From Chroococcus sp. CMT-3BRIN-NPC107 (lineage in GTDB: Bacteria; Cyanobacteriota; Cyanobacteriia; Cyanobacteriales; Chroococcidiopsidaceae): DNA of 64,000 nt. Positions 40,301-58,345 of this stretch are shown piece by piece. Every line of letters starts with the position of its first letter. Position 1 is the stretch's first letter. The notes beneath the pieces were generated by a model that was not told the origin of the DNA, did no database searches, and saw only the letters and a program-made list of their open reading frames with translations. The stretch covers positions 1-64,000 of the forward strand of contig JAHHGY010000005.1 of NCBI GenBank assembly GCA_019359635.1. The letters are read 5' to 3'. A program made the position numbers and the translations under genes.

Positions 40301-41086
40301 TCAGTAGATAGTCGAGGGCAAGGAAATGCAGGCAATTTACAAGTTACTGCAAGCTCGATTAGTCTCGATCGCGGCGCATTTATTTCCGCATCTACAGCAA
40401 GCGGAGAAGGCGGCGGTGTAGATATTCAAGCAGAAGAATTGCTATTATTGCGCCGCAACAGTAATATAACTACTGCTGCCGGAGGTACAGGTAACGGCGG
40501 CAATATTGAACTTGACGCTACATTTATTGTTGCCCCCGCCACCGAAGACAGTAATATTATTGCCGATGCGATCGCCGGAAATGGCGGAAATATTAATCTT
40601 ACTGCTCAAGGCATTTTTGGCATTGCCTCCCGCCCACAGCAGACACCCCTGAGTGATATTACTGCTAGTTCGGAACTAGGAATAGACGGCACGATCGCCA
40701 TTACAAACCCCGATGTCGATCCAAGTCAAGGTTTAATCGCTTTACCAGTAGAAGTAATTGATGCGACAAATCAAATTGCTGCTGGTTGTAGTAACGATCG
40801 CCAAGCAACACCAAATAAATTTATTGTTACTGGACGCGGCGGTTTACCACCAGACCCCGGCAATACCCTCGCCAATGATGCAGTGCTGACTGATTGGGCA
40901 ACTTTAGAGGGGACAGAAACTAATAACCAAGGTGGCATTTCTATAACTAAACAACCCCCGGCGGCAATTGTAGAGGCGCAAGGTTGGATGATGGACACTC
41001 ATGGTAGGGTAGTTCTCACGGCTCAAGTACCCCAAGTTACGCCCAATAGTTCTAAACCGATCGCTACTTCTTGCAATGAATTGTAA
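37394..41086 (+). CDS. TpsA-like filamentous haemagglutinin exoprotein (copy 1)
   Basis: This 1230-residue protein is the secreted partner of a two-partner (type Vb) system. It starts with a signal peptide (MKKIWVGLFSVVAISSAIAT, cleaved near AIAQ). The TPS secretion domain follows (about 30-270), containing NLFHSFSEFNI, ILARVTG and NPNGIIFGANASL. From about 280 to 1100 it is a long array of imperfect glycine/serine-rich repeats (G-Q-G-x-A-G-x-I-F-I-Q type) expected to form a right-handed beta-helix. The C-terminus has a conserved AAGCSNDRQATPNKFIVTGR segment. It has no obvious toxin domain. A paralogue follows 198 bases downstream, then the TpsB transporter. Confidence 0.9.
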   Translation: MKKIWVGLFSVVAISSAIATNNCAIAQISPDTTLGSESSLTQADTQFPIDIIEGGATRGANLFHSFSEFNIEEGRGAYFYSPSADIQNILARVTGSNPSTILGTIGTYGNSIPNLFLINPNGIIFGANASLDMGNSGLDVGGTGGSFVATTANAVILGDTGGIFSASNPAASNLLNIAPSALFFNSNSPAEIVNRSSATTSVLEFFTSGLQVPNSRSLLLVGGKVTLDDGELVAAGGRVELAGVTQGTLGLNIDGNDLSLNYPDEVQRADIVLTNNSAISVLGNSGGNIVVYAQNLDVLEQSQLYGGILAGQGAVDAQAGDITLNATGTIAIAGKDNSFSSVSAIFNTIGWGAVGQGGDINIIADSLFLNGAGLSSISSGQGNVGSIFIQVENSASFVNSGIFSNLSAEGTGNAGNIAIQAESIFFSGTNLSTGTSGQGNAGNIFIQAGLLSLNDSLLSATTSGQGDAGSIFIQVPNSVSINSSTIISDVDSGAIGKGGNIDIQARSLALINNSGLSTGTRGQGDAGSVFIQSNAVVLDNSRIFSSNFGNFVSILTGNEEEIALGNGGDIRIVTGSLTLNNDAALTTSTLGLGDAGNVFISATGSVSLARSSISSDVFSGTLLGVEGANGEIIDIIGATAVGNGGDINIDAQSLSLSDESLLATGTFGLGDAGNVAIQTSGAVRFTNNSGILSGVISNAFVGLVGAEAVGKGGDLSIVADSLTLDSSTLATNTAGEGNSGAIFIQANDIFITNDSRITSAVQQGGIGDAGDINIQAGSLYITGGSQIRAAVERERDNLPGGQGKGGNISINASETVDISGVNGNGFSSALSTSSDRGASGEAGNIIVNTSNFRIADGAVVNALTANSSNAGNITINANNFTATGGGQVLTTTSSGGNAGSINLNVANNVDLSGSDPNFASRQAQFGTDIVTNQSPSSGLFANTALGSTGSGGSIFVNSQEFNISENAGVSVDSRGQGNAGNLQVTASSISLDRGAFISASTASGEGGGVDIQAEELLLLRRNSNITTAAGGTGNGGNIELDATFIVAPATEDSNIIADAIAGNGGNINLTAQGIFGIASRPQQTPLSDITASSELGIDGTIAITNPDVDPSQGLIALPVEVIDATNQIAAGCSNDRQATPNKFIVTGRGGLPPDPGNTLANDAVLTDWATLEGTETNNQGGISITKQPPAAIVEAQGWMMDTHGRVVLTAQVPQVTPNSSKPIATSCNEL
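38062..38401 (+). repeat. Near-identical 340-bp tract shared by the two tpsA genes (copy 1)
   Basis: This tract matches 41904-42243 with no indels and only a handful of substitutions, including at silent positions, whereas the secretion domain just upstream has diverged strongly between the two genes. The pattern suggests recent gene conversion or a recent recombination, and makes the two genes prone to merge by deletion. Confidence 0.85.
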
Positions 41087-41284
41087 TTATTTACAATTTA
41101 GTGCGATCGCTAATAGTACCCCTTCTTAATACTTAGGCTTTCTATAGTTGTAGAAGTGCGATCGCAACTAGCTAGAGTAATTATTAAATCTTAATGAGTG
41201 CTTTTGTACTTTCAGTTTATTGTTTTAGAAATAATTGACTATTATTTATTACACCAATATTTATAAGAATAGGTAGGGTCACGG

Positions 41285-44200
41285 ATGGCTCAAAGCTTGA
41301 GGGGTGGGATTTGGAAATTAGGAATATTGAGTATTGTTGGGGTTAGTGGTGCGATCGCTTTTTCTGAAGATTGTGCTTTTGCTCAGATCGCTGCTGACGA
41401 GACTTTGGGCGGTGAAAATTCTATTGTCATACCTCAAGATCCTTTAGGCTTTCCTGTCCATCAAATCGAAGGCGGAGCGATTCGGGAGACAAATTTATTC
41501 CATAGTTTTAAGCAATTTTCTGTTCTCACTGGACGTGGAGCTTACTTTAACAATCCTTCAGGTATTGAGAATATTATTAGCCGTGTGACCGGCGGTTCGG
41601 TTTCAAATATTAATGGATTTATTCAAGCTAACGGTACTGCTAACGTGTTTTTGCTCAACCCAAATGGAATTATTTTTGGTAGTGGAGCCTCATTAAATAT
41701 TGGCGGTTCATTTTTGGCAACTACAGCCAGTAGCCTGCTCTTTACTGATGGCTCGACCTTCAGTGCAACAGCGTCTCAAACAACACCTTTATTAAGGGTG
41801 AGTGTACCGATTGGTTTGCAATTTGGAGGAAGTCCGGGAAATATTACTATTGCTAGTAATATTCTACAAGTTACAAATGGTAAAACCCTAGCTCTAGTTG
41901 GGGAAAAGGTCACTTTAGATGATGGAGAATTAGTGGCGGCTGGCGGTCGAGTTGAGTTAGCAGGAGTAACACAAGGAACCCTAGGACTAAATATAGATGG
42001 TAACGATTTGAGTTTAAATTATCCGGACGGGGTACAACGAGCCGATATAGTTCTCACAAATAATTCTGCTATTGATGTAAGGGGTAACAGTGGCGGCAAT
42101 ATTGTAGTCTATGCTCAAAACTTGGATATTTTAGAGCAAAGCCAACTATATGGAGGAATATTAGCTGCACAAGGGGCTGTTGACGCTCAAGCGGGAGACA
42201 TTACTCTAAATGCCACGGGTACAATTACGATCGCAGGCAAGGATAATTCTTCCTCCTCTCCTTCGATCGTAGATACTACTATAGGTTTGGGCGCAGTAGG
42301 ACAAGGTGGCGATATTAATATAATTGCTGACTCGCTGTCTCTCAATGGCGCTGGTCTAAGTAATATTAGTCGCGGGCAAGGGAATGTTGGCAGCATATTT
42401 ATTCAAGTTGAAAACTCAGCATCTTTCGTAGATAGCGACATTTTTAGCAACTTGAGAGCGGAAGCGACAGGCAATGCTGGTAACGTTGCTATTCAAGCTG
42501 AGTCTGTCTTTTTTAATGGAACCAATTTGGGTACAAATACTAATGGGCAAGGAGATGCTGGTAATGTTTTTATTCAAGCGGATAATTCCGTTTCTATAGA
42601 AAGTAGCCTGATTGAGAGCAGAGTAGATTCCGGAGCTATAGGCAAGGGAGGTAATATTGATATTCAAGCTGGGTCGCTTTCTTTAGCTAATAATTCTGCA
42701 CTAAGCACCAGTACAAGAGGACAAGGAAACGCAGGTAGCGTAATTATTCAGTCCAACGATGTATCGCTAGATAACAGCAGAATTGCTAGTAGTAATCTTG
42801 GTATTATCATATCTTCATCTGGCATTGAGGAAGCAGTAGCCTTAGGCAATGGAGGAGATATTCGGATCGTTACAGGTTCCCTTGCTTTAAACAACAATTC
42901 TGCTTTAGTTGCCCGCACTTTCGGGTTAGGAGATGCGGGAAATGTATTTATTAGTGCCAGTGGCGATGTGTCTTTGGCAGGGAGAAGTAGTGTCTCTAGT
43001 GATGTGTTTAGCGGTACTGTTCCAGATTTTGAAGAAGCTAATGGAGAAATTATCGACATCATTGGCATTGAGGCTGCGGGGAATGGTGGTGATATCAATA
43101 TTGACGCACAGTCTTTATCTCTTAGTGACGCGTCTCGGTTAATAGCTAGCACTTCTGGACTAGGAGATGCGGGAAATGTATCGATCCAGACTAGCGGAGC
43201 CGTTACATTTACAAATGATAGTAGCATCGTTAGTGGTGTTATTAATCTTAGCTCTCTTGGACGGGATGATGGAGCAGATGCCATTGGTCAGGGTGGCAAC
43301 TTAAGTATTGTGGCGGATTCAGTAAATATTGATTCCTCTAGGTTAATTACTAGCACCACCGGAGAGGGAAGTGCTGGGGCAATATTTGTCCAAGCTAATA
43401 GCATTTTTTTAAGCAATTATGGACGGATTACTAGCGCCGTACAGCAAGGCGGTGTTGGGGATGCGGGAGATATTAATCTTGAAACGAACTCGCTTTATTT
43501 AACTAGTGGCTCTCAAATCCGTGCCGCTGTAGAAAGAGAGCAAAACGATTTTCCTGGAGGTCAAGGGGAAGGTGGCAATATTTTAATTAATGCAAGTGTT
43601 AGTGTAGACCTTGAGGGAGTCAATACGGAGGGAATTTCTAGTACTATAAGTACCAGCACAAATCGCGACGCAATCGGTACTGCGGGAAATATAATCGTCA
43701 ATACAAACACCTTCCGTATTGCTGATGGTGCAGTAGTAAGCGCGTTAACAGCAAATTCTAGCAATGCAGGTAGCATTACAATTAATGCTAATAACTTTAC
43801 AGCTACTGGTGGCGGACAAGTGATTACGACCACAAGTAACAGTGGCAACGCCGGAAATATTAATCTCAATATTGCTAATAATATTGACCTTCGTGGTAGC
43901 GATCCAAATTTTGCATCTCGCCAAGCCCAATTTGGCACAGATATAGTAACAAATCAAAGCGCTTCTAGTGGCTTGTTTGCAAATACCGCCCTCGGCTCAA
44001 CCGGAGGTGGTGGAAGCGCGTTTATTAACGCTCAACAGTTTAATATTGCTGGCGGTGCGGGGGTATCGGTAAATAGTCGCGGACAAGGAAACGCAGGCAA
44101 TTTAAAAGTTACTGCAAGCTCGATTAGTCTTGACGATGGAGCATTTCTTTTGGCATCCACCGCCAGTGGAGAAGGTGGCAATATTGATATTCAGGCAGAG

Positions 44201-44857
44201 GAATTAGTATTATTGCGGCGCAATAGTAATATAAATGCGGCGGCCGGTGGTACGGGGAACGGTGGCAATATTGACTTGGATGCTACATTTATCGTGGCTA
44301 TAGCAACGGAAGATAGTAATATTATTGCCGATGCGATCGCCGGAAATGGCGGGAATATTAATCTTACTGCTCAAGGTCTTTTTGGCATCCAGTCCCGCTC
44401 AGAGCAAACTTCCAATAGTGACATTACAGCAAGATCGGAATCAGGTACAGACGGCGCGATCGCCATTACAAACCCCGATGTCGATCCAAGTCAAGGTTTA
44501 ACGGCTTTACCAATAGAAATAATTGATGCGACAGATCAAATTGCTGCTGGTTGTAGTAACGATCGCCAAGCAACCCCAAATAAATTTATTGTTACTGGAC
44601 GCGGCGGCTTACCACCAGACCCCGGCAATACCCTCGCCAATGATACAGTGCTGACTGATTGGGCGACTCTAGAGGGGACAGAAAATAATAACGTAAGCGG
44701 ATCTCGCGCTTCGACAAATAAACAACCCCCGGCGGCAATTGTAGAGGCGCAAGGCTGGATGATGGACACTCGTGGTAGGGTAGTTCTCACGGCTCAAGTA
44801 CCTCAAGTTACGCCTAATAGTTCTAAACCGATCGTGACTTCTTGCAATGGATTGTAA
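41285..44857 (+). CDS. TpsA-like filamentous haemagglutinin exoprotein (copy 2)
   Basis: This 1190-residue paralogue has the same architecture as the preceding gene: signal peptide (cleaved near AFAQI), TPS domain with NLFHSFKQFSVLTGRGAYF, IISRVTGG and NPNGIIFGSGASL, then a beta-helical repeat region, then the conserved C-terminal segment beginning AAGCSNDRQ. The N-terminal 200 residues differ clearly from copy 1, while the middle and C-terminal parts are similar, in places nearly identical at DNA level. Its last 11 bases overlap the start of the tpsB gene, so the two are probably translationally coupled. This copy may therefore be the principal cargo of that transporter. Confidence 0.9.
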   Translation: MAQSLRGGIWKLGILSIVGVSGAIAFSEDCAFAQIAADETLGGENSIVIPQDPLGFPVHQIEGGAIRETNLFHSFKQFSVLTGRGAYFNNPSGIENIISRVTGGSVSNINGFIQANGTANVFLLNPNGIIFGSGASLNIGGSFLATTASSLLFTDGSTFSATASQTTPLLRVSVPIGLQFGGSPGNITIASNILQVTNGKTLALVGEKVTLDDGELVAAGGRVELAGVTQGTLGLNIDGNDLSLNYPDGVQRADIVLTNNSAIDVRGNSGGNIVVYAQNLDILEQSQLYGGILAAQGAVDAQAGDITLNATGTITIAGKDNSSSSPSIVDTTIGLGAVGQGGDINIIADSLSLNGAGLSNISRGQGNVGSIFIQVENSASFVDSDIFSNLRAEATGNAGNVAIQAESVFFNGTNLGTNTNGQGDAGNVFIQADNSVSIESSLIESRVDSGAIGKGGNIDIQAGSLSLANNSALSTSTRGQGNAGSVIIQSNDVSLDNSRIASSNLGIIISSSGIEEAVALGNGGDIRIVTGSLALNNNSALVARTFGLGDAGNVFISASGDVSLAGRSSVSSDVFSGTVPDFEEANGEIIDIIGIEAAGNGGDINIDAQSLSLSDASRLIASTSGLGDAGNVSIQTSGAVTFTNDSSIVSGVINLSSLGRDDGADAIGQGGNLSIVADSVNIDSSRLITSTTGEGSAGAIFVQANSIFLSNYGRITSAVQQGGVGDAGDINLETNSLYLTSGSQIRAAVEREQNDFPGGQGEGGNILINASVSVDLEGVNTEGISSTISTSTNRDAIGTAGNIIVNTNTFRIADGAVVSALTANSSNAGSITINANNFTATGGGQVITTTSNSGNAGNINLNIANNIDLRGSDPNFASRQAQFGTDIVTNQSASSGLFANTALGSTGGGGSAFINAQQFNIAGGAGVSVNSRGQGNAGNLKVTASSISLDDGAFLLASTASGEGGNIDIQAEELVLLRRNSNINAAAGGTGNGGNIDLDATFIVAIATEDSNIIADAIAGNGGNINLTAQGLFGIQSRSEQTSNSDITARSESGTDGAIAITNPDVDPSQGLTALPIEIIDATDQIAAGCSNDRQATPNKFIVTGRGGLPPDPGNTLANDTVLTDWATLEGTENNNVSGSRASTNKQPPAAIVEAQGWMMDTRGRVVLTAQVPQVTPNSSKPIVTSCNGL
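41904..42243 (+). repeat. Near-identical 340-bp tract shared by the two tpsA genes (copy 2)
   Basis: Partner of the tract at 38062-38401, in the same orientation and with a constant offset of 3842 bases. Recombination between the copies would delete that length and leave one chimeric tpsA gene. Confidence 0.85.
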
Positions 44858-46568
44858 ACAAACTCAGTCTTGGTTATGGCTAATACCAATTTTAATAGCT
44901 ACTAGCAGTGTTTCTAGTTCGCTACACGCGCAAACACCGCCGTTACAAGTTCCTTCTCCCCAAGATGTTCAGCCTTTTCCTTCGCCAATTCCTTCTCCAG
45001 TATTGCCCCAACCTTTACCTCCTCCCGAAGAATTATTAGAGCCAACTTTACCCACTCCTACACCGTCAGAAAATATCCCTGACCGACTGCAAACAATTAA
45101 TGTAGAACGTTTTGAAGTTGTGGGTAGTACGGTATTTTCTCGCCAACAATTAGCAAAAGTTCTAGAACCTTTTACCAATAGACCGATTTCTTTTGCCGAA
45201 CTATTTCAAGCGCGATCGGCGATAACTCAACTTTACTTTGATAATGGTTATATTACGTCTGGCGCATATATTCCCCCCCAAACCCTCCAAGGCAAAGTAG
45301 TGACAATTACTGTTTTAGAAGGAGGATTAGAAAATATTCAAGTTACCGGGACGAAATATTTAAACACTAATTACATTCGTAAACGAATAGAAATTGCTAC
45401 CATTGCACCTATAAATCGCGATCGCCTTTTACAAGCGTTGCAACTATTGCAACTCAATCCTTTAATTAGAAACATATCCGCCGAACTATCGGCGGGAACT
45501 CGCCCCGGTCAAAGTATATTAGAAGTTCAAGTTACTGAAGCTAAAAGTACAACTATTCAAACTACGATTGATAACGGACGATCGCCAGCAGTGGGCAGTT
45601 TTCGCCGTAATATTCAATTAAATGAAGGAAATTTATTTGGCATAGGCGATCGCGTTACTCTTGCTTATACCAACACTGACGGTAGCAATGCGATCGATGC
45701 AAGTTATGCTTTGCCGCTCAATCCTCGCAACGGTACGCTCAACTTTGGTTATGGGACGACTTCTAGCAGCGTAATTGAGCCACCTTTTGACTTGCTAGAT
45801 ATAAATTCTGAATCTCGCTACTACGATATAACTCTGCGTCAGCCAATTATTCAAACTCCCAGTCAAGAGCTTGCTTTGGGTATCAGCGCTAGTCGCCTGG
45901 AAAGTGAAACTTCGTTGCTAGATATCCCTTCTGCCTTGTCTTTGGGTGCGGACGAGCAAGGAAGAAGTAGAATTTCGGCGATCAGATTTTTTCAAGAATG
46001 GACGCAAAGAGATACTCGTCAAGTAATTGCAGCGCGATCGCAATTTAACTTAGGAGTTGGCGCTTTTGATTCTACTGTTAATGCCGAACAACCAGATAGC
46101 CGCTTTTTATCTTGGCAAGGACAAGCTCAGTGGGTGCGCCTGTTAGCGCCAGAAACCTTACTTTTGGTGCGCGGCAACGTTCAGCTATCTGCTACCTCGC
46201 TTTTACCTTTAGAACAATTTAGTTTGGGCGGTTTGCAAAGCGTACGCGGCTACCGTCAAGACTTGCTTTTAACCGATAATGGTGCTTTTGCTTCGGCGGA
46301 GGTAAGGCTGCCTGTTTTGCGCGTTTCTGACTGGAATGCAGTTTTACAAGTAGCTCCCTTTGTCGATGTTGGTAGTACCTGGAACGCTGGTAGAGAGTCT
46401 CCAGAGCGCAATTCATTAGCTTCTGTAGGTTTGGGTTTAATTTGGCAACAAAGCGATCGCTTTACGGCGCGTCTCGATTACGGTATTCCTTTAATCTCTG
46501 TATCTTCTACTGAACGAACATGGCAAGAAAACGGTTTATACTTTTCCGTGTTTTACAACCCTTTTTAA
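44847..46568 (+). CDS. TpsB outer-membrane transporter (ShlB/FhaC family)
   Basis: This 573-residue Omp85-superfamily protein exports the TpsA proteins across the outer membrane. A signal peptide (ending near LHAQ) is followed by a proline-rich linker (about 32-75). POTRA domains come next (75-230, with VERFEVVGSTVFSRQQL and YITSGAYIPPQTLQGKVVTI). The rest is a 16-strand barrel ending in a terminal phenylalanine (YFSVFYNPF), as usual for outer-membrane beta-barrels. The SLGGLQSVRGYRQD motif is the conserved VRGY loop 6 element that inserts in the pore. It overlaps tpsA copy 2 by 11 bases and the CHAT gene by 49 bases. Confidence 0.95.
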   Translation: MDCKQTQSWLWLIPILIATSSVSSSLHAQTPPLQVPSPQDVQPFPSPIPSPVLPQPLPPPEELLEPTLPTPTPSENIPDRLQTINVERFEVVGSTVFSRQQLAKVLEPFTNRPISFAELFQARSAITQLYFDNGYITSGAYIPPQTLQGKVVTITVLEGGLENIQVTGTKYLNTNYIRKRIEIATIAPINRDRLLQALQLLQLNPLIRNISAELSAGTRPGQSILEVQVTEAKSTTIQTTIDNGRSPAVGSFRRNIQLNEGNLFGIGDRVTLAYTNTDGSNAIDASYALPLNPRNGTLNFGYGTTSSSVIEPPFDLLDINSESRYYDITLRQPIIQTPSQELALGISASRLESETSLLDIPSALSLGADEQGRSRISAIRFFQEWTQRDTRQVIAARSQFNLGVGAFDSTVNAEQPDSRFLSWQGQAQWVRLLAPETLLLVRGNVQLSATSLLPLEQFSLGGLQSVRGYRQDLLLTDNGAFASAEVRLPVLRVSDWNAVLQVAPFVDVGSTWNAGRESPERNSLASVGLGLIWQQSDRFTARLDYGIPLISVSSTERTWQENGLYFSVFYNPF

Positions 46569-49135
46569 GCAAAACTTGGCGCTTTGGGTTGATGACGGCG
46601 ATCTTTTGCGCGATCGCGTCTCCTAAGACAATTTCGGCAATTTCTACAGTTTTTGCCCCCACTCAAATGGTGCAACAAAGTAAAACTCTTTACGATACTG
46701 GACAATACAATCAGGCAATAGAAATATTAAAGCAAGCAACTAAAGAATTTGCAGCTAGAGGCGATCGCACAAGTCAAGCTTTGGCTTTAAGCAATCTTTC
46801 TTTGGCTTATCAACAACTAAGTAGCTGGGAAGAAGCAACTAAGGCAATTTCTGATAGTCTCCAATTGTTGCAAGACCCGACTTTAAATAAGCGATCGGCG
46901 GAAAGTTTGCGGGAGGCTGTGCCTTCCGTAAACCTTTCCAAGAGACAAGTTCTGGCGCAAGTTTTGGATATTCAAGGGCGCTTGCAATTTTTAACGGGGC
47001 AAACTCAACAAGCAATAGATAGTTGGCAACAATCGGGAGCAATTTATCGGCAACTAGGCGATGTCTCAAAAGCGCTGAAAAGCCGGATTAATTCGGTACA
47101 AGCATTGCAATCGTTAGGATTATTTAATCGCTCTTTAAGCGAACTAACAGAAATAGACAAAGCTCTAACTTCTACTCCCGATTCAGTGACTAAAGCTGTA
47201 GGATTGCGGAGTTTTGGCGATGTTTTGCAATTGGTAGGTGACTTTGAACGCTCTAAGAAAGTTTTACAGCAAAGTTTAGTAGTAGCGCAAAATTTATCGT
47301 CTCCTGAAAACATTAGCGGAGCTTTATTTAGTTTAGGTAATACCGCCCGCGCCCAGCAAAACACCTCTGAAGCGCTCAATTTTTATCAGCAAGCGGCATT
47401 AACAGCTAATCCAACTCTTAAATTACAATCTCAATTAAATCAACTGAGTTTATTAATCGACCTAGAGCAGTTTACAGAAGCGCAGAAATTATTACCGCAA
47501 ATTGAGACGCAACTTAAACAATTACCTAGTGGGAGAGCAACAGTTTATGCTCAAATCAACTTTGCCCAAAGTCTTAAGCGTTTAAAAGATGTTTCTAATC
47601 CGCCAAAAATTGCCGAACTTTTGACGGCGGCGATTAAACAAGCTCGAAGTCTTCAAGATCCGCGCCTAGAAGCTTATGCTTTAGGTAGCTTAGGGCAATT
47701 GTACGAACAAAATCAGCAAGTAACAGAAGCAAAGAATTTAACAGAACAATCTTTACTTATTGCTCAATCTATCAATGCACCAGATATTAGTTATCGTTTT
47801 CAATGGCAACTAGGAAGACTATTAAAAGCTGAGGGCAAGACAGAAGATGCGATCGCCTCTTATACTGAAGCTGTCAAATCTTTACAATCTCTCCGCAGCG
47901 ACCTTGTAGCCACTAATCCCAATATAGAGTTTTCTTTTCGTTCTAGCGTCGAACCTGTTTATCGGCAATTAGTTAGTTTGTTGTTGGAATCGGCGCAACC
48001 CACCGGAGAAATCGAGGATCTAGCTAAGTCTCAAAAAAACTTAGTTGCAGCGAGAAACATTTTTGAATCTTTGCAAGCAGCAGAATTAGTTAACTTTTTT
48101 CGTTCGGAATGCTTAACCGCAACCCCCGTACAAATAGACAAACTCGACTTGCAAGCGGCGGTTATTTATCCAGTAATTTTGGAAGACAGGTTAGAGGTAA
48201 TTTTGAGCTTACCTCAACAACCCCTGCGTCATTACACAACGGCATTAAAAGGTAGCGAAATTGAAAAGGTTTTAACTCAGTTGCGCCAATTGCTTGTAAC
48301 ACGCACTTCTAAAGCTTTTTTACCGCTTTCTCAACAAGTATACGATTGGTTGATTCGTCCGGCAGAAGCTGATTTAAACATAAATCAAGTTAAAACTCTA
48401 GTATTTGTCTTAGATGGCTCATTGCGAAATATTCCCATGGCTGCACTCCACGACGGCAAACAATATTTGCTAGAAAAATATAGTTTAGCTCTTACTCCAG
48501 GATTGCAACTTTTACCGCCAGAATCATTGCAAAAAACACAATTAAAGGTGTTGACGGCGGGACTTACTGAAGCCCGACAAAATTTTCCGGCTTTAGCTAA
48601 CGTGGGAGTAGAATTACAACAAATTCAGTCGCAATTACCTACGGTAGAGTTACTTAACGGGCAATTTACCAACCAAGCTTTACAAAAAGAACTAGAATCC
48701 GTGCCTTTTCCTGTAGTCCATATTGCCAGTCACGGACAATTTAGTTCTACAGCAGAAGATACATTTATTCTGACTTGGGATGGTCGAATTAATGTCAATC
48801 AGTTAGATAATCTACTTAGAAGTGGCGATCGCACTAGAAATATTGAGTTACTCGTCCTTAGTGCTTGTCGTACCGTAGCTAGCGACCGAAGGGCAGCCTT
48901 GGGGCTTGCAGGGGTGGCAATTAGGGCGGGGGCGCGCAGTACTGTAGCAGGTTTATGGTATGTCAGCGACGCAGCTACCGTCCCCTTAATGAGTAGATTT
49001 TACCAAGAACTAGCTAGCACTACTGTAACAAGAGCCGAAGCTTTGCGTCGCGCTCAATTAGCTTTGCTACAAAACCCTCTATACAGACATCCGGTATACT
49101 GGGCGGCTTACGTATTGGTGGGAAATTGGCTATAA
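46520..49135 (+). CDS. TPR-CHAT domain protein (caspase-like)
   Basis: The 871-residue protein begins with a basic, then hydrophobic segment (MARKRFILFRVLQPF, later LMTAIFCAIAS) that looks like a signal peptide or anchor. TPR-type helical repeats fill about residues 55-470. A CHAT domain occupies about 590-870. CHAT domains belong to the caspase/separase peptidase clan, and both catalytic residues are present: His738 in HIASHGQF and Cys783 in LSACRT. The ATG at 46520 lies inside the end of tpsB; a second in-frame ATG at 46592 would still overlap nothing vital. Position and overlap tie it to the two-partner secretion genes. It could process the exoproteins or act as an exported protease, but its target is unknown. 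Confidence 0.9.
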   Translation: MARKRFILFRVLQPFLSKTWRFGLMTAIFCAIASPKTISAISTVFAPTQMVQQSKTLYDTGQYNQAIEILKQATKEFAARGDRTSQALALSNLSLAYQQLSSWEEATKAISDSLQLLQDPTLNKRSAESLREAVPSVNLSKRQVLAQVLDIQGRLQFLTGQTQQAIDSWQQSGAIYRQLGDVSKALKSRINSVQALQSLGLFNRSLSELTEIDKALTSTPDSVTKAVGLRSFGDVLQLVGDFERSKKVLQQSLVVAQNLSSPENISGALFSLGNTARAQQNTSEALNFYQQAALTANPTLKLQSQLNQLSLLIDLEQFTEAQKLLPQIETQLKQLPSGRATVYAQINFAQSLKRLKDVSNPPKIAELLTAAIKQARSLQDPRLEAYALGSLGQLYEQNQQVTEAKNLTEQSLLIAQSINAPDISYRFQWQLGRLLKAEGKTEDAIASYTEAVKSLQSLRSDLVATNPNIEFSFRSSVEPVYRQLVSLLLESAQPTGEIEDLAKSQKNLVAARNIFESLQAAELVNFFRSECLTATPVQIDKLDLQAAVIYPVILEDRLEVILSLPQQPLRHYTTALKGSEIEKVLTQLRQLLVTRTSKAFLPLSQQVYDWLIRPAEADLNINQVKTLVFVLDGSLRNIPMAALHDGKQYLLEKYSLALTPGLQLLPPESLQKTQLKVLTAGLTEARQNFPALANVGVELQQIQSQLPTVELLNGQFTNQALQKELESVPFPVVHIASHGQFSSTAEDTFILTWDGRINVNQLDNLLRSGDRTRNIELLVLSACRTVASDRRAALGLAGVAIRAGARSTVAGLWYVSDAATVPLMSRFYQELASTTVTRAEALRRAQLALLQNPLYRHPVYWAAYVLVGNWL

Positions 49136-49145
49136 AAGATGTTAA

Positions 49146-49175
49146 AATCCCTCTCCCAGATTTGGCAGAGGGATT
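49146..49175. terminator. Hairpin between convergent CHAT and DUF928 genes
   Basis: AATCCCTCT (49146-49154) pairs perfectly with AGAGGGATT (49167-49175); inner CCCA/TGG pairs can extend it. It lies 10 bases after the CHAT stop and 17 bases before the DUF928 stop, a good position for two-way termination. The T-run is weak. Confidence 0.65.
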
Positions 49176-49192
49176 CTTAAAGCTTAGTTTCC

Positions 49193-50110
49193 TTAGTTAG
49201 TCGCCGTACAACAGGGAACTAAGGGTTCTCTAGCAATTTTATCCAATCCGACCGAATCTAATAAATCTGCCCACTCATTAATTAAAGCAGAATTATTTGG
49301 GCTAGATTTACGAGTTTCAAATAGCGCTGTAAGGCTATCATACCAAAGACCATTAACAGCATACAAAGAAGCGCGATCGCTTGCCGATACTTGTTGCAAT
49401 GCGCTTTGTAAGGCAGGATCGAGTTTAACTCTTTGTACCCATCCATCTACAAATATATCCGCCGAACGGTCTTGAGCATTACACACAATAGATAAGTACC
49501 AGTGGTAACTTTTGCCTACTTGCAAAGGTTTTAAACCAGGCAAACTAGCAAAATTGATACTAGCTATACCACCAGTTTTGTTTGGGGTAAGATTTTTTTG
49601 ATAAACTTCGTTATCGTTTTCGTCTAGTAACGATAGTTCTAAAATATCGGCGGAAGTTTGGGGTACGTAAAAGAAAACTACCGGATACTGCGATGTCGTC
49701 ATGCCTAAATTGTTAGCAGGAACTAAAGCTGTTAAAGTGCGATCGCTACTAGAACACCCTCCTCTAGTTGCACCGCCAATTCTCGTCCCTGGTGCGCCTC
49801 GGTTTGAAGCTATGAAAATATTTTTTGACGATCCCCGACGCGCGTAATTGCTCACATTATTGATGGCGGTAGTGGCATAAGCATCGCCGGGACGTACGCT
49901 TAAAGCTCGTCTAAAATTAATTAAAGCGTTGCGATAATCTCTTTTAGCTGTAGCTGAGTAGCCCAGACGCATATACTTGTTGTATTGCGATATGGTAGCT
50001 TGAGCAACGGTTATTGGTGCTTGGGGAGTCGCCAAAATTGGCGCTAAGGGCATCAAACAAGTTGTTGCTAAAATTGCAGGTAAGTATTTCGACCAAAGAT
50101 TGCGTTTCAC
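49193..50110 (-). CDS. DUF928-family exported protein with TPR-like N-terminus
   Basis: The 305-residue protein has a signal peptide (MKRNLWSKYLPAILATTCLM, cleaved near TVAQA). A single TPR-like segment follows (about 50-90, YRNALINFRRALSVRPGDAY), then a beta-rich domain (110-230) with QYPVVFFYVPQTSADILEL and KSYHWYLSIVCNAQDRSADI, which matches the uncharacterised DUF928 family. The C-terminal part (235-300) is helical and ends in a Cys-Cys pair. DUF928 genes are often beside CHAT or haemagglutinin-type genes in cyanobacteria, as here. It is expected in the periplasm and has no known biochemical role. Confidence 0.85.
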   Translation of the reverse strand: MKRNLWSKYLPAILATTCLMPLAPILATPQAPITVAQATISQYNKYMRLGYSATAKRDYRNALINFRRALSVRPGDAYATTAINNVSNYARRGSSKNIFIASNRGAPGTRIGGATRGGCSSSDRTLTALVPANNLGMTTSQYPVVFFYVPQTSADILELSLLDENDNEVYQKNLTPNKTGGIASINFASLPGLKPLQVGKSYHWYLSIVCNAQDRSADIFVDGWVQRVKLDPALQSALQQVSASDRASLYAVNGLWYDSLTALFETRKSSPNNSALINEWADLLDSVGLDKIAREPLVPCCTATN

Positions 50111-50359
50111 TGGGATCGCCTCTTATTTATTATTTTTGCTAGTTTTATTGAGATTATCTGTAATATTTTGTGGGGAAATATTGAGATTCAGTCTTACCTT
50201 GCTGTCATTATATCTGCTGGGGAAATTGAGAAGTTGGTGAATTATTAAGGTTAGTTGAGATCGTGATATTAAATTAAACATTATTGTTGAAGCAAATTTC
50301 GGACAATTGATAAATTTAATTAACTATAAATGCTTTAGGGAGGCGATCGCACCCATCTT

Positions 50360-52073
50360 CTATAGTCGATAGTTGAAACTAAAATAGAAGCCATCATCTT
50401 GAAGATTGTTCCCGCGATCGCTTAGGTTAATAAATAGGGGGGCATAGTCTAACCTTAAGTTGAGTTTTGGCAAAGGTTCCCAAATCAATCCCACTCCTGC
50501 ACCTAACAAAAACCTTTGAGTGGGCAAAAATTCATTATTCGGGTTATCTGTTACATTCCAGACTGCGCCCGCATCTACAAAATGGGGCAATTTGCAGTAC
50601 AGGGATTCCGGCTTCATTGCGTTGCAAAGCAATTTGGTCTTCAATTGATAATCTAAAGCCATTATCCCCCGCCCGAACATTTTGCCTGTAACCGCGTACC
50701 GATTGACCGCCCCCAAGCACAAATAATTGCGATGGAAGTAGACTGTCTGGTGTTAGTGGCACATCTACTTGCACAATTAACAGTTGGTTGTTACCTAGTA
50801 ATTGCACTCGCTGCACTTGACCTAACCAACTAAAAAAGAGTCCGTCGGCTTTTGGTGCAGGTCTACTTGTAGCGTCAAATAAGCCTGTACCGACGCTAAA
50901 AAGCGATCGCTATGACCAAGCTCCACGCGGATCTCGGCGCACGTAGTCTTGTCCAAATTTCACCACACTGGTACGGTTATCAGTGTTAAAAAAGTTTAAA
51001 GTATCATCACTAACAAAAGTTTTACCGTCCTCTAAAGTAAAACCTACTGATAAGGCAAATTCTTCGCGCAGCGACCTAATTAAAGGTTGGCGAAAACTAA
51101 TTTCATAGGATTCTTGTTCGCCTTGAAAGCCAAATTGATTAAAGGGTGCTTCAATAATTTGCGTCCGATTTGGTGCGGCTCTCAGTTGAATTGTCCCATT
51201 CATAGCATTAACGGGAACGCGATAAGCAAAATCAAAAATATCCGAGCCATTTTGCTGAGTAAAATAATAACTTGCTCTAATTTCGTCGCCAATTCCAGTC
51301 AAATTACGATAACCCAAGTTTAGCCAAATTCTTTCCGAGCCAATACTTGGAGGCGAATAATTATCAATCCCAACTGTGCCGTAAAATGGATCTGCTTCTG
51401 TAACTCTAACTGTAAGAATACTTTCCCTAATTCGCTACCAGCACGCAAACTTGCTTCAATATTTTGAATTAAGGGATCGAGACGTAATAATCTTAATTGT
51501 TCTTCAATTCCAGCATTATTTAAAGGGTTTATTCCTCCTAAATTTATACGACTGCGAATATAATTAGGATTTAACCTGCGCGTACCATCAATTTCAATTG
51601 CCGTTAAGCTACCTTCAATAATTCTAATTTGGACGATTCCATCCACGATTGTTTGATTAACTACAATTGCTCGTGATGTTAGATAGTCACGATTGAGATA
51701 AAGCTGAGTAATGGAGTCTGCAACACCTCTTAATTCTTCTAAAGATAAAATTTTTCCGGCAAAAGGTGCGGTGACTGCATTAATTTCTCCATCGCTAAAT
51801 ACGGTACTACCCGTAACTTCTATTTTTTTTACCGCAATTGTTAGTGAGCTTGTGGGCGTAAGAGTGGGCGCAGGTACTGGTGTAATAAGTATTTGGGGTT
51901 CTGGTGATGGTACGGGCGTAGGCAAAGGAGCAGGCTGTAAAAAGCGATCGCGGTTTGGATCGGTCGGTTTGTGGTTTTACTGCAGGTGTTTGTTGAGCAA
52001 ATAAACTAGAATTTTGCGCTTCAGGTAGATATTTAAAAATAGCGACTTCTGGCGGCGGTGTTAAGTGGGGCAT
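50360..52073 (-). pseudogene. Second TpsB (ShlB/FhaC) gene, inactivated by multiple lesions
   Basis: The reading frame pieces together into one full-length TpsB of about 570 residues. It has a proline-rich N-terminus, POTRA (VKKIEVTGSTVFSDGEINAV), the barrel with GGGQSVRGYRQN and a C-terminal YFSFNYRL. It needs four corrections: a frameshift near 51960-51975, a missing A in the GGGAAAGT run near 51423, an in-frame TAG at 50910-50912 within WS-stop-RSLFSVG where homologues have an aromatic residue, and an extra T near 50580. The rest is well conserved, so inactivation is recent. It is divergent from the broken haemagglutinin-CHAT gene, presumably its former partner. Confidence 0.85.
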
Positions 52074-52332
52074 CGGATGATACTAAAATTATAAAAAAAT
52101 AGGTTGCAATTAAACTGAATTTGTATCAACTTTATCAAATAATATAAACAAAAAAATAAAACTTTTTGTTAAGTTTGGCTTAAGAAATAATAGTAAATAG
52201 AAAAATGCTGTACTTTACAGAAAGCAATTAGTCTAACACTATAGATCGAAAGCAGGTAGAAAAATTGCTAACTTTAAAAATTGGAATTTCCTCGCGTAAA
52301 TTTTGTCATTAATAATTATTTATTGTTAAACT

Positions 52333-55007
52333 ATGTTTTATAGTCTTCCCCCTAATAACTCCGTAGGAATAGTCGTTTATCCTTCCTCAAATAAGGCAAA
52401 AGCTCCACAAAAACTTTTAGCCCAAACTATTACTCCCACCGCCGATGGTACTAATACCATAGTTAATCTTGATGGCAATCAGATAGATGTTAGTGGCGGT
52501 CAACTATCAAGCGATCGCGCTAATTTGTATCATAGTTTTGCCCAATTTGGTCTTAGTTCCGAGCAAATAGCTAACTTTTTATCCAACCCAGACATTAGAA
52601 ATATCTTGGCAAGAGTAACCGGAGGCGATGCCTCGGTAATTAATGGCTTAATTCAAGTTAGCGGCGGCAATTCCAACTTATTTTTAATGAACCCCGCCGG
52701 AATTGTATTTGGTGCAAATGCGAGTTTAAATGTCCCGGCGGCTTTTACAGCTACTACTGCAACAGGAATAGGAATTGATAGCAACTGGTTTGCAGCAACA
52801 GGCACTCAGGATTATGCAACACTTGTAGGTACTCCTAATAGTTTTGCCTTTACGAGTAGTCAGCCAGGAAGCATTATTAATGTTGGCAACCTTAGTGTCA
52901 GCCAAGGACAAAACTTGACTTTACTAGGGGGTACAGTTGTTAGTAGCGGCAAGTTAGCGGCTCCAGGCGGTCAAATTACCATCGCCGCAGTTCCGGGTAC
53001 AAGCATAGTCACAATTGGCGAACAAGGGCAGTTGCTAAGTTTAGATGTGCAAGTACCCCCAGCCAGTTCTCTAACCAACTGGACGCTACCAATTGCCTCT
53101 TTGCCACAATTACTCACCGGTGGTAATGTTAGTAGCGCTACAAACCTCACAGTCAACGAGCAAGGTCAATTAGTCTTAACTGGCGCTGGAATAGAGGCAT
53201 CACCTGGTAGTGCGATCGCATCTGGCACTATCGATACATCAGGTCAAATTGGCGGAAAAGTCCAAGTATTAGGTAATAAAGTTGGATTAATTGGCACAAA
53301 CATCAACGCTTCCGGGACAAACGGAGGCGGTAGCGTCCTCATCGGCGGCGATTATCAAGGTGCTGGGACTATACCAAGGGCTACTCGGACTTACGTGAGC
53401 CGTGACACTTCTATTGCTGCTAATAGTCTTGTTGATGGTAATCTAACAATTAATGGTGTTACCGCTACTCCCGGTACAGTCGTGACTTCTACAGATACAT
53501 TGACATTCACGCCGCCTGTAGATGCTACTGGTAATATTAATGCTTTTATTATTAGGGCAAGCGATCGCGTTTCATCTTCTACCCCAGTGCAGATAGCAAT
53601 TAATGTTGCACCAACCCTTACACCATCACCAACCCCTACACCAGACCCTACGGTATTAATTAGACCGCAACTGCCAGAGCGATCGCCAATAACTACCCCA
53701 AACAACCCACGTTTAGTTAGCAATCCTCTAGTTAACGTACTGCCACCGGAAGCCCAGTTTACCAGTGAATTTGAAAACTACTTAGGACTATCAAGTAGTG
53801 CAAGCTTGTCTAGCCAAGAAGATGAGCGCCAAATTGCCCGACGAATAGAGCAGAGCAGCAAACTGGAGCAAAACCAGCGTTTATCTATGTCAATTTTGTG
53901 CCGCCAGAAATTAATACTCTGGCAACGCCGCAAAAATCCACCAAAGTTTTAGAAAAAAATACAGATCAACTAGAGGTAATTTTAGTAATGCCTCAAGGGG
54001 AGCCAATTCGTAGGCGTATACCCGCAGCTACCAGAAAGGCGGTACTCGCCACCGCAACTAAACTCCGCAACGAAGTAACCAATACAAGAAGACTCCGCAG
54101 CACCAGTTATTTAGCTTCATCCCAGCAGATGTATAGCTGGCTAATTGCACCCATCAAGAGCGACTTAGAAGCTCAAAATATTACTAACTTAGTATTTTTG
54201 TTAAATGCTGGTTTACGTTCTATGCCTGCCGCTGCAATGCACGATGGCAAAGGCTTTTTAATCGAAAAATATAGTGTTGGTTTGATGCCAAGTATTAGCT
54301 TGACAGATACTCGCTATGTGAATATCAAAAATTCTCAAGTTCTAGCCTTGGGAATATCCGAAAGCACTCAAGGTCAAGTTCCTTTACCTGCCGTAAGTTT
54401 TGAATTATCTACCTTAGTAAACTACTTATGGACTGGGAGCAAATACATTAATCAATCCTTTACGCGGCAAAACCTCAAGTCATTGCGCCGCCAGCAACCA
54501 TATAGCATCGTTCACATGGTAACTCATGCCGATATTAGTTCGGGTGCGGTGGATAATTCTTATATTCAATTATGGAACGATCGCTTGCGTCTCAATCAAA
54601 TTCGTCAATTAGAACTCAATAATCCTCAAGTGGAAATGTTGGTACTAAGTGCGTGTAGAACGGCTTTAGGTAATGAAGATGCAGAGTTAGGTTTTGCCGG
54701 ATTAGCCGTAAATGCGGGGGTAAAAACTACGGTTGCGAGTCTCTGGTTTGTCAACGATACGGCAACGGCAGCCTTTATGACTCAGTTTTATCGGTATTTA
54801 AATACAGCATCAATTAAGGCGGATGCAATGCGACAGGCACAAGTAGCAATGGCTAAAGGAGAAATTTCGATTAAAGACGGCCGTTTGCAAGGTCTGGGAG
54901 CAGTAAAAGGTTTGCCAATTCCCCAAGCAATGGTTAACTTACCCAATCAAAACTTCTCTCACCCTTACTTTTGGTCTGGTTTTACTATGGTTGGCAATCC
55001 TTGGTAA
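52333..55007 (+). pseudogene. Filamentous haemagglutinin-CHAT fusion, split by one frameshift
   Basis: The 5' part (52333 to about 53860) encodes a TPS-like domain (NLYHSFAQFGLSSEQIANFL, ILARVTGG, NPAGIVFGANASL), then a short beta-helical region and a Pro/Thr-rich linker (TPSPTPTPDPT). The 3' part, in another frame, encodes a CHAT domain with the catalytic His codon at 54525-54527 (VTHAD) and Cys codon at 54654-54656 (LSACRT). Restoring one A at the AAA run 53860-53862 joins them as SSKTGAKPAFIYVNFVPPE, the usual linker of cyanobacterial haemagglutinin-CHAT fusions. The N-terminus lacks a clear signal peptide, so the 5' end may also be damaged. An internal ATG at 53898 could still express the CHAT part alone. 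Confidence 0.85.
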
Positions 55008-55301: not shown

Positions 55302-55327
55302 ACCTAATTTTGGGAGCATCTCACATT

Positions 55328-55819
55328 ATGCACAAGATAGCCTTGGAATGGGTGGAAGAAGGTCGCAACCGTTCTCAAGCTTTTACTTTTGATAAGCCAA
55401 ACGAACAGCCAATTCGGATTGGCAGAGATGAAAGGCAGTGCGATGTCATAATTAAAGATTTAGCAAAAACTGTTTCTGGCTTGCACGTAGAAATATTTTT
55501 TGATACAGCAAAATACACTTTTTACTTACGTAACCTGACTAAAAATAGAGACAAGCCAAACCCTGCTTGGGTAAACGGACAAAAAGTTGTAGAAGAAGAT
55601 ACAGCGCTCAAACATCGCGCTATTATTCAACTAGGCAAAATGACACTAACAGCTAACGTCACCTCTGATATGCCAGAAGATACGCCCGTAAATGGATTAA
55701 AGTGCCATGTCTGCGGTCATGTTTCCCCCCAATCAAGTTTGTCTTTAGTATGTCAGTGGTGCGGAACTTCTTTAGCCTCAGCGCCTACTGCCGTCTACTT
55801 TCCCGACGAAAAACCATAG
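55328..55819 (+). CDS. Forkhead-associated (FHA) domain protein with C-terminal zinc ribbon
   Basis: The 163-residue protein starts MHKIALEWVEEGRNRSQAFT; I prefer the ATG at 55328 to an upstream in-frame TTG at 55310. Residues 25-110 form an FHA domain, which binds phosphothreonine peptides: the conserved GR is in IRIGRDERQ, the S-x-x-H in VSGLHVEIF and the N-G in WVNGQKV. Residues 120-150 hold two CxxC knuckles (CHVCGH and CQWCGTS) expected to bind zinc. It is the first clear gene of a plus-strand operon with a second FHA protein, 33 bases away, and a membrane protein. It is probably an adaptor in Ser/Thr kinase signalling. Confidence 0.9.
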   Translation: MHKIALEWVEEGRNRSQAFTFDKPNEQPIRIGRDERQCDVIIKDLAKTVSGLHVEIFFDTAKYTFYLRNLTKNRDKPNPAWVNGQKVVEEDTALKHRAIIQLGKMTLTANVTSDMPEDTPVNGLKCHVCGHVSPQSSLSLVCQWCGTSLASAPTAVYFPDEKP

Positions 55820-55852
55820 TTTTATCTTTGCTTTAATACCCAACACCCTCTT

Positions 55853-57856
55853 ATGGAAATTCAACTAAGCTGGGAAGACCCCACGTCCGGGGAGTTATTT
55901 GAACCACTTTTATCTGCACCTATAGCTTTTGGTAGAGAAGCAGGTCAAATTCCTTCCACAATTAACGATCAGCCAGTTTCGCCAATTATTCTTGCCAGCA
56001 AGCAAGTTTCGCGCTTTCATGCCTTAATTACTGTAAATAACGGGCAACTGACTATTGAAGATCGGAGCGCCAACGGGACGCTAATCAATGGCGATCGCCT
56101 AACCCAATCAACGCGTCTTTTAAATAGTGGCGACACTATCAAATTAGGCGCTTACGAAATTACGATCACTATCGAGTCGCAGACTAATAACATTGAGGCG
56201 ACAGAAGTTGTAGTTGGCGACCCGTCGGCGACGGAATTTGTAGTTCCTTCCTCAACAATTGTTTTTAACCCAGAAACGGACATTCTGGAAGCTCAAGCTA
56301 GTATCCCGCAAGAAATTAGCACCCCAGGACAAGCTTTCCCCCCCCCTTGTTTTGCTGCCGAAAGAGTATCCATTGCCGATATAAACGCCGCAGGTTTACC
56401 CATTGAAGAAACCGACTATGTGAGCTTAGGTGCTGGTATGGGGAGCTTTACTTGGGCAGATACAATGCGCTGCTTTGGGGTAAGAGCCGATCAAATTGTA
56501 GTTTTAGGAATTGAAAAAAAGCCCTACGGTCGCTATCAGCGTTTATGCCAAAACTCGCAAATTCCCGCTCACGAGCGGCTGCGATCGGGTTCTGACTCCT
56601 GCCCAGACAATATTTGGGGCTGGCCAGGCTATGCTTGGCGAGAGTCTTTTAAAGAGTTTTTTAGAGGACAAGTAAGTTCGGCAATTAAGCATCTGTGGCA
56701 AGTATTTTCCGAACCAGTGTTGGCAGATACCTACACGCCAAAATCGGGGGATGTATTTGCTTCAGTAGATCGAGAAGCGGCAAGAATTGGTTGGGACAAA
56801 ATGCTGCGTTACGGTCGTTTCCGGGCAATTCGCAAAACTGAAGATGGTCGCTACGTTATTGCTTATTCTCGCACTCAAGGCAATCGCCAAGATCGTCGCT
56901 TTTTGCTCGCTCGCTACATCCACATGGCTCCGGGTTATCCAGCTATTAAGTTTTTACCAGACTTGCAGGCTTACCGCGAAAAATACCGCGATTTTAAGTC
57001 GGTAGTTAATGCCTACGAAGAACACGAACACGTTTACAAGCATTTAACTACCTTTGGTGGAAGTGTAATTGTTCGGGGTAGAGGCATTGTTGCTTCCCGA
57101 ATTATTCAGCGCATATCAGAAATTCGCCGCCAAAACTCTAATATTACAATTTTGCATTTAATGCGATCGCCCAAACCGGAAGGTAACAAGTTTGGAGTCG
57201 CTCAACGCAAAACCGAAAACCAGTGGGAGTTTCAGCCCTACAACTGGCCCAAAGGAACGTGGGGGGGTGATATGAAGAAACGTTTAGAAGAAGGTAGCCC
57301 CGTCGAACGCCAGCGCCTGCTCACCGATTGGGGCGGTACGACTACCGCCGACCGCTCGGACTGGAAAAAGATTGTCAGTGGCGGATTGCAAGCAGGATGG
57401 TACACGATCGCTTTTGGTAAAGTAGACCGAGTAGAGCAAGACGATAAAGGGCGGTTAGTTACCTATTTAGAAACTAGCAATATTAAGGGCGAAAGCAAGC
57501 TCAACGCTGACTTTATTATCGATTCTACCGGACTTGATGCCAAGCCTGCGGAAAGTCCTTTTCTCAACGATTTGGTTACTCATTACAACTTGCCTCTCAA
57601 CCCTTTAGGACGGCTGCACGTCGCCAATGATTTTGAGCTTGTCGAGATGCGAAACGATCGCGCTCGGATGTATTGCGCTGGGGTAATGACTCTAGGCGGT
57701 CCTTACGCCCCTGTAGATACCTTTTTAGGGTTGCAGTACGCGGCGCAGTGTGCGGCGGATGGTCTGGCAAGAGCGCGCGCGCCAAAGGCAAGTCGCCTCA
57801 ATGGTTTGGGTTCTTTCATTCAATGGATTAAGTGGGCAACTAATCAAACACCATGA
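55853..57856 (+). CDS. FHA domain fused to a Rossmann FAD/NAD(P)-type oxidoreductase
   Basis: The 667-residue protein has an N-terminal FHA domain (residues 15-110: FGREAG, VSRFHALIT, RSANGTLINGDRL), a spacer, and a large oxidoreductase-like region (about 180-650). That region shows a dinucleotide-binding motif YVSLGAGMGSFTWADTMRCF (near 190) and a second, GSVIVRGRGIVASRIIQRIS (about 405-420), as in two-Rossmann flavin monooxygenases. It also has ADFIIDSTGLDA and a late MYCAGVMTLGGPYAPVDTF segment like the FAD-closing motif. The substrate is unknown. The FHA domain would target or regulate it through threonine phosphorylation. Its stop overlaps the start of the next gene by four bases. Confidence 0.85.
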   Translation: MEIQLSWEDPTSGELFEPLLSAPIAFGREAGQIPSTINDQPVSPIILASKQVSRFHALITVNNGQLTIEDRSANGTLINGDRLTQSTRLLNSGDTIKLGAYEITITIESQTNNIEATEVVVGDPSATEFVVPSSTIVFNPETDILEAQASIPQEISTPGQAFPPPCFAAERVSIADINAAGLPIEETDYVSLGAGMGSFTWADTMRCFGVRADQIVVLGIEKKPYGRYQRLCQNSQIPAHERLRSGSDSCPDNIWGWPGYAWRESFKEFFRGQVSSAIKHLWQVFSEPVLADTYTPKSGDVFASVDREAARIGWDKMLRYGRFRAIRKTEDGRYVIAYSRTQGNRQDRRFLLARYIHMAPGYPAIKFLPDLQAYREKYRDFKSVVNAYEEHEHVYKHLTTFGGSVIVRGRGIVASRIIQRISEIRRQNSNITILHLMRSPKPEGNKFGVAQRKTENQWEFQPYNWPKGTWGGDMKKRLEEGSPVERQRLLTDWGGTTTADRSDWKKIVSGGLQAGWYTIAFGKVDRVEQDDKGRLVTYLETSNIKGESKLNADFIIDSTGLDAKPAESPFLNDLVTHYNLPLNPLGRLHVANDFELVEMRNDRARMYCAGVMTLGGPYAPVDTFLGLQYAAQCAADGLARARAPKASRLNGLGSFIQWIKWATNQTP

Positions 57857-58293
57857 CACCTATTTTATTTGGACGTTGGCAAACTCGCCTATTTCTCCTC
57901 GCCACGATTGGATTAATCGTTAGCTTACCTTTCGCTTTGGGCATTATTGGCCCTAATCCCGACGGTAATTTTCACCCAATTTTCTTTTGGGTCATTTTTT
58001 GGGTAGGGGTTTTAGGCTTACTGTGGGATATTCTTTATAACTACTTGCAACAGTATTTATGGGATCACGACTGGCCCGGTGCGTTTCAGTTTTTTGCTTG
58101 TATTGCCGAAGGCATTGTTTTAGGATTGCTGCTCAAGTTTGTAGGTTTACCGTTTGTAGACCGCAACGTATTTGACCTGGGATGGTTTATCGTCCACTAT
58201 ACGGCAGTTTCGATAATTGCTTACTTCTTATCGTGGGCAGTGATGCGGATACTATTCCCCCGATGGCGCTTTAGGGGCGGTAAATGGATTTAA
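57853..58293 (+). CDS. Small four-helix membrane protein of the FHA operon
   Basis: The 146-residue protein has about four hydrophobic helices (for example LFLLATIGLIVSLPFALGII, FFWVIFWVGVLGLLWDIL, FFACIAEGIVLGLLLKFVGL and a final WFIVHYTAVSIIAYFLSW) and a basic C-terminus RWRFRGGKWI. No catalytic motif is visible. Its ATG overlaps the stop of the FHA-oxidoreductase gene (ATGA), which argues for translational coupling and a shared complex, perhaps a membrane anchor or quinone/electron partner. A terminator follows 25 bases after the stop, closing the operon. Confidence 0.85.
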   Translation: MTPILFGRWQTRLFLLATIGLIVSLPFALGIIGPNPDGNFHPIFFWVIFWVGVLGLLWDILYNYLQQYLWDHDWPGAFQFFACIAEGIVLGLLLKFVGLPFVDRNVFDLGWFIVHYTAVSIIAYFLSWAVMRILFPRWRFRGGKWI

Positions 58294-58318: not shown

Positions 58319-58345
58319 AAAGACGTTGCATGGCAGCGTCTTTTT
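58319..58345 (+). terminator. Intrinsic terminator closing the FHA operon
   Basis: AAAGACGTTGC (58319-58329) pairs with GCAGCGTCTTT (58333-58343), with one G-U pair and a three-base loop, and a T-run follows. It shares its core with the hairpin at 646-670. Confidence 0.8.

Follow-up and report, generated by a model that had tools for sequence, protein, structure and literature searches.

On the enzymatic side, the closest described relatives of the system considered here are the ornithine N-hydroxylases SidA, PvdA and KtzI (Pfam PF13434), which are two-Rossmann FAD/NADPH enzymes, together with the group B flavin monooxygenases (FMOs), whose signature is FxGxxxHxxxW, and flavoproteins resembling YpdA or thioredoxin reductase. 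The disulfide reductases, such as thioredoxin reductase and dihydrolipoamide dehydrogenase, carry a redox-active CxxC or CxxxxC pair. The classical motifs of the N-hydroxylases are GxGxxN for FAD and GxGQSA for NADPH (PMC12498188). On the signalling side, FHA-containing Ser/Thr kinases are known from cyanobacteria, for example Anabaena alr0548 and alr4954 (PMC2176072), and the OdhI/GarA proteins of the Actinobacteria control metabolism through an FHA domain, by which GarA binds its own phosphorylated segment (PMC5448819). In the open-access literature we found no description of FHA domains in the company of cyanobacterial oxidoreductases or flavoproteins.

The locus described below lies near the end of the window (the whole 64,000-nucleotide stretch of DNA that was analysed). 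An earlier note on this DNA had recognized three co-directional genes closed by a terminator, encoding an FHA/zinc-ribbon protein, an FHA domain fused to a two-Rossmann FAD/NAD(P)-type oxidoreductase and a translationally coupled four-helix membrane protein, and had taken them for a plausible undescribed system of kinase-controlled redox chemistry at a membrane. The features of the locus are as follows.

55328..55819, plus strand: gene A, 163 aa, FHA domain and C-terminal zinc-ribbon-like tail
about 55412-55636, plus strand: FHA domain of A (Pfam FHA, E 6e-11)
about 55703-55777, plus strand: CxxC...CxxC zinc-ribbon-like tail of A (sequence motif)
55853..57856, plus strand: gene B, 667 aa, FHA domain fused to a predicted FAD/NAD(P)H two-Rossmann oxidoreductase
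55931..56149, plus strand: FHA domain of B (residues 27-99; conserved G27-R28, S53, H56, N74-G75 and N79)
56252..56278, plus strand: linker motif STIxFNPxT (B residues 134-142), a conserved island in an otherwise variable, low-confidence linker
56429..56446, plus strand: FAD-binding glycine motif GxGxGS (B residues 193-198), after the first beta strand
57074..57097, plus strand: putative NAD(P)H-binding motif RGxGIVAS (B residues 408-415), in the second Rossmann domain
57521..57535, plus strand: DxTGL motif (B residues 557-561), located where two-Rossmann flavoproteins have their ATG-like motif
57853..58293, plus strand: gene C, 146 aa, predicted four-helix membrane protein of an unnamed family
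58319..58343, plus strand: intrinsic terminator hairpin AAAGACGTTGCATGGCAGCGTCTTT, then a T run (-14.1 kcal/mol, z -5.1 against shuffles)

Genes A, B and C are real genes and not chance open reading frames (ORFs), since they are conserved at the protein level across dozens of genera; B itself is ~90% identical to its counterpart from Aliterella/Chlorogloea-type cyanobacteria. Gene A starts at the ATG at 55328 (an alternative in-frame TTG lies at 55310) and is separated from B by 33 bp, while B and C overlap by four bases (ATGA). The ORFs, their strands and this overlap agree with the three co-directional genes and the coupling of C to B that had been proposed. The closing terminator was likewise confirmed just past 58293; a simple consensus scan missed the hairpin, which was revealed by scoring its energy against shuffles.

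The region before gene A holds a two-partner secretion cluster (37394-53952), and a CHAT-domain gene ends 320 bp before A. These and one more distant gene of the window are listed here.

37394-41086, 41285-44857 and 52333-53952: three TPS-domain exoproteins
44847-46568: ShlB/POTRA transporter
46520-49135 and 53898-55007: CHAT-domain proteins, the second being the one nearest to A
50910-51317 and 51320-51925, minus strand: broken ShlB gene, in two fragments
21076-23607, minus strand: protein with cNMP-binding, sigma-54-activator AAA and 4Fe-4S (Fer4_5) domains

To our knowledge, cyanobacteria are generally said to be without sigma-54.

Relatives of B were found in 220 encoding stretches of genome contigs. 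No Pfam or NCBIfam model matches residues 171-667, and a PDB sequence search with the catalytic domain, alone or as a profile, gave no significant match. Structure prediction of the 667-residue protein, which the earlier note had put forward as a check, yielded a nucleotide-binding fold: the AlphaFold2 model, built from 20 relatives, has a mean pLDDT of 72.8, and parts of the insert in the NADPH domain (residues 443-500) are modelled with low confidence. Foldseek placed SidA, PvdA and KtzI at the top (E 1e-16 to 1e-14), and VIA-align gave Z scores of 19-23 against FAD/NAD(P)H enzymes, with YpdA at 22.6, bacterial FMOs at about 20 and PvdA at 19.5 over 348 residues. In a single hhalign comparison (E 4e-4, 377 columns) the B profile ran colinear with a cyanobacterial NMO-like protein from end to end, and the DxTGL motif fell on the corresponding segment of that protein; profile comparisons with true PF13434 enzymes and with Pyr_redox_3-type and TrxR-type proteins, in which the alignments are shallow, were weaker or partial. 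Within the model, residues 403-425 form a strand, a glycine-rich loop and a helix around RGxGIVAS. On the strength of the model it is very probable that B has the two-Rossmann fold, and the fusion named in the earlier note stands on Pfam for its FHA half and on AlphaFold2, Foldseek and VIA-align for its enzyme half. Its two dinucleotide-binding domains, with their glycine-rich loops in the order expected, place B in the two-Rossmann FAD/NAD(P)H flavoprotein superfamily, and B would use FAD and NADPH.

The glycines G193, G195 and G197 of the first motif reach at least 97% conservation among the cyanobacterial members. They are identical in an FHA-less relative from Nonomuraea gerenzanensis (L141:9911-11455, an unannotated stretch), the one record on which the actinobacterial comparison is based, which is 38% identical to B over the whole enzyme domain. 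This relative also keeps H391, Y395, GxGxGS, RGxGIVAS and DxTGL, which are conserved throughout the family, and 97 of the 163 B positions conserved at 97% or more. Because it has no FHA domain, B-type chemistry can do without phospho-control, a point against kinase gating.

Set beside the N-hydroxylases, B is alike in fold over about 350 aligned residues and in the order of its glycine loops and of the H/Y segment before the second loop, but it has GxGxGS instead of GxGxxN and GxGIVAS instead of GxGQSA, and it differs further by its N-terminal FHA domain and a family-specific insert of about 60 residues. PF13434 gave no match to B even at E 5, a PF13434 search of the source genome missed this locus, and no siderophore genes were seen near it. 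Because the classical motifs are absent, we place B in a new family of the superfamily and do not call it an N-hydroxylase. It shares its fold with the group B FMO-like and the YpdA/thioredoxin-reductase-like flavoproteins (the Z range given above) but differs from them in its fused FHA domain and the absence of a redox cysteine pair, and the FMO signature, in the form quoted above, was not seen in it.

These comparisons bear on the chemistry. YpdA, together with ferredoxin and thioredoxin reductases, stands among the best VIA-align matches, as would suit an NAD(P)H-dependent reductase of the quinone, thiol or ferredoxin type delivering electrons to C or to a membrane lipid carrier; the conserved Trp-rich C-terminal helix (SxxQWxKWxxNQxP) could then be an amphipathic anchor, and genes that, by eye, resemble heme A synthesis genes come after C in some Microcoleus-type loci. 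The cysteines, however, argue otherwise, for among 122 catalytic domains of the B family CxxxxC occurs in none and CxxC in one, so that B lacks the pair of the disulfide reductases, and C232 and C250 are not retained in Nonomuraea. The N-hydroxylases, moreover, lead the Foldseek matches and have the largest number of residues aligned. We consider a reductase unlikely, and oxygenase-type chemistry, which we put at about an even chance, would be likelier than reductase-type. A third reading makes B a catalytically altered flavoprotein, a redox or nucleotide sensor or a scaffold, leaving the work to the FHA domain and C, while bound FAD and NADPH would do no more than signal the redox state. FHA-bearing proteins are usually signalling scaffolds, and both the large insert in the NADPH domain and the departures from classical motifs would fit such a role; strong conservation over the whole catalytic domain (the 163 positions mentioned above) argues instead for a constrained active site, and we regard this reading as improbable.

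The FHA domains of A (residues 29-103, 43 bits) and B (residues 27-99, E 2e-14, 54 bits) both exceed the PF00498 gathering threshold (20.7) and possess the contact residues (G-R, S..H, N); those contacting phosphothreonine in B are conserved at 97% or more. In the A family alignment G32, R33, S50, H53, N78, C126, C142 and G146 are invariant. A thus answers to the FHA/zinc-ribbon protein of the earlier note, with the FHA domain above threshold and a CxxC...CxxC tail that Pfam zinc-ribbon models score only below threshold. Outside its own family, the FHA domains closest to that of A lie inside long proteins with HRD and DFG kinase motifs, five of these Ser/Thr kinases scoring E 4e-43 to 6e-35; A resembles the cyanobacterial FHA kinases in this domain but has no kinase domain and carries the zinc ribbon instead. 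PADLOC anti-phage profiles gave no convincing match to A, B or C, the only hit being a weak one of Cas10 on A (E 0.026).

Because the FHA residues are conserved and the FHA domain of A is nearest to those of Ser/Thr kinases, FHA-based phospho-control of B is probable on sequence grounds. No kinase or phosphatase gene was found consistently linked to the locus in gene order. A cluster-10 kinase occurs near 12 of about 110 loci, a number judged, without formal statistics, to be no more than expected because these genomes hold many kinases, and it was left unused.

Between the FHA domain and the enzyme of B lies a linker of variable length that is predicted to be disordered (pLDDT about 30), in which the conserved island, in its longer form STIxFNPxT[DN], stands out. 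Of 108 distinct linkers, 81 have its strict core, IxF[NDH]P, where shuffling of the linkers predicts 0.23; the remainder mostly have near variants, such as STIHFNANTN, and in Microcoleus-type members the motif is duplicated. GarA binds a phosphothreonine segment of its own, and on this analogy the island is a candidate phospho-switch or dock. The comparison with OdhI/GarA would thus include possible self-binding of a phosphorylated segment beside the FHA domain, but those proteins act as separate inhibitors and have their ETTS motif at the N-terminus, whereas in B the FHA domain is fused to an enzyme and the candidate motif lies C-terminal to it.

The FHA domain of B also resembles that of short membrane-anchored proteins adjoining MscS-DEP channels. 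In these conserved pairs (L225:1326-3996, L226:2090-4581, L227:1567-4107 and L229:3710-6193) a short protein with one membrane helix and a B-like FHA domain accompanies an MscS channel with a C-terminal DEP domain, and the channel pair is possibly another phospho-read membrane protein in cyanobacteria.

Gene C encodes what AlphaFold2 (pLDDT 78) predicts to be a four-helix protein (helices 3-28, 43-68, 75-96 and 109-134), and the four membrane helices, apparent in hydropathy as well, sustain the membrane protein of the earlier note. Its family signature is MTPxLxGRWQxR...WDxLYxxLQ..WDxDWP...RWRFRGGxW. No Pfam or NCBIfam model matches C, and a structural search with its model gave no significant match (best E 3).

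How the three genes travel together was followed in two samples. Of 80 B loci from genome contigs, almost every one from a different species, 78 have A immediately before B in the same orientation, at a median gap of 96 bp. C is found downstream of B within 400 bp in 18 of the 80 and within 4 kb in 43, and elsewhere otherwise; given the distance that often separates it from B, the pair will not always share a transcript. The three-gene order, whose conservation the earlier note had put forward as a check, is therefore nearly invariant for A and B, but the close succession of B and C is limited to those 18 loci. In the second sample, one set of 386 cyanobacterial genomes was searched for B and, independently, for C, and each was found in 61, with both in 60. 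The B-only exception (G334) is a draft assembly, and in the C-only exception (G438) C is a pseudogene broken by three stops. With A called at a profile E of at most 1e-15, it was absent, or present only as an FHA domain within a longer protein, in seven of the 61 B-bearing genomes (G137, G145, G163, G177, G217, G219 and G301). Since all seven have B and C, the core unit is B plus C, and A is dispensable. The association of the three genes across related genomes, as distinct from their strict order, is upheld.

Shared descent could also produce such a pattern, if A, B and C were unrelated housekeeping genes. All survey matches fall within one class of cyanobacteria, and pairs of genes can stay neighbours through descent. 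Against this, C co-occurs with B even when unlinked, whether some kilobases off or at another site of the genome; presence and absence of the two are concordant within several families (f1, f10, f14, f25 and f33); and in G438, where B is missing, C has decayed. Copy numbers match, in that all three genomes with two B copies (G235, G311 and G340) have two C copies. In trees of 33 B-C pairs the main clades agree, and paralogous C proteins group with the relatives of their cognate B (L145/L146 in G340; L009/L025 in Plectonema LEGE 06105), a matching within single genomes that shared species history cannot explain. Association by descent only is largely refuted and would be highly improbable, while a functional partnership of B and C is very likely; we infer physical contact between the two.

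Several neighbours were considered as parts of the system and rejected as lineage-limited. In Nostocales, genes read from their sequence as a GDSL esterase and a CPBP protease often lie between B and C, and an endonuclease V precedes A. The GDSL-type esterase is usually directly upstream of C in these loci (L013, L020, L032, L053 and others), an adjacency that holds even with C far from B (for example L161, L165, L167 and L169), and it persists without B. In G311, which also keeps an intact A-B locus, a truncated B is joined in frame to C as one ORF of 735 aa (L153:5579-7786); this was set aside as evidence of fusion, as its B lacks about the last 130 residues and the ORF is probably a decaying second copy.

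In the reading that we prefer to a reductase, a sensor or descent only, B would be an NADPH- and FAD-dependent enzyme most like the group B flavin monooxygenases (N-hydroxylases and FMOs), and C its dedicated partner, which might anchor B at the membrane or else present or receive its lipophilic substrate. The FHA domain of B would recognize a phosphothreonine made by a Hanks-type kinase, whether in a partner or in the linker motif of B itself, and thereby set activity or recruitment; A would be a second, accessory adaptor with an FHA domain, its zinc ribbon recruiting a further partner. Taken together, a FAD/NADPH flavoenzyme with a membrane partner, phospho-gating by FHA and an accessory A is a reading that we hold to be evenly poised, although its parts range from rather tentative to very probable, since those parts are themselves hedged. 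A membrane-associated substrate is among the tentative ones. So, too, is the fuller proposal of an undescribed, kinase-gated flavoenzyme-membrane module of cyanobacteria, in which the FHA domain may gate a new group-B-like oxygenase family through a phosphorylated linker, and an obligate four-helix partner, C, of a new family, may supply or receive the lipophilic substrate.

The earlier interpretation of the locus as a whole is partly supported, with the conservation, the predicted fold and the B-C partnership borne out and kinase control and a complex at the membrane proposed, and in the open-access literature no description contradicting its novelty was found. The domain types of the parts are known; what appears undescribed is the fusion, the families of the oxidoreductase and of the membrane protein, and their partnership. 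Few outputs are known for the dozens of Ser/Thr kinases of cyanobacteria, and a widespread enzyme with its own phosphothreonine reader and a matched membrane partner would give a testable endpoint of Ser/Thr kinase signalling. B would add a flavoenzyme family that has no Pfam model, and the neighbours of its Nonomuraea relative could reveal the ancestral chemistry. Through B and C together one could look for the membrane or lipid chemistry that phosphorylation switches.
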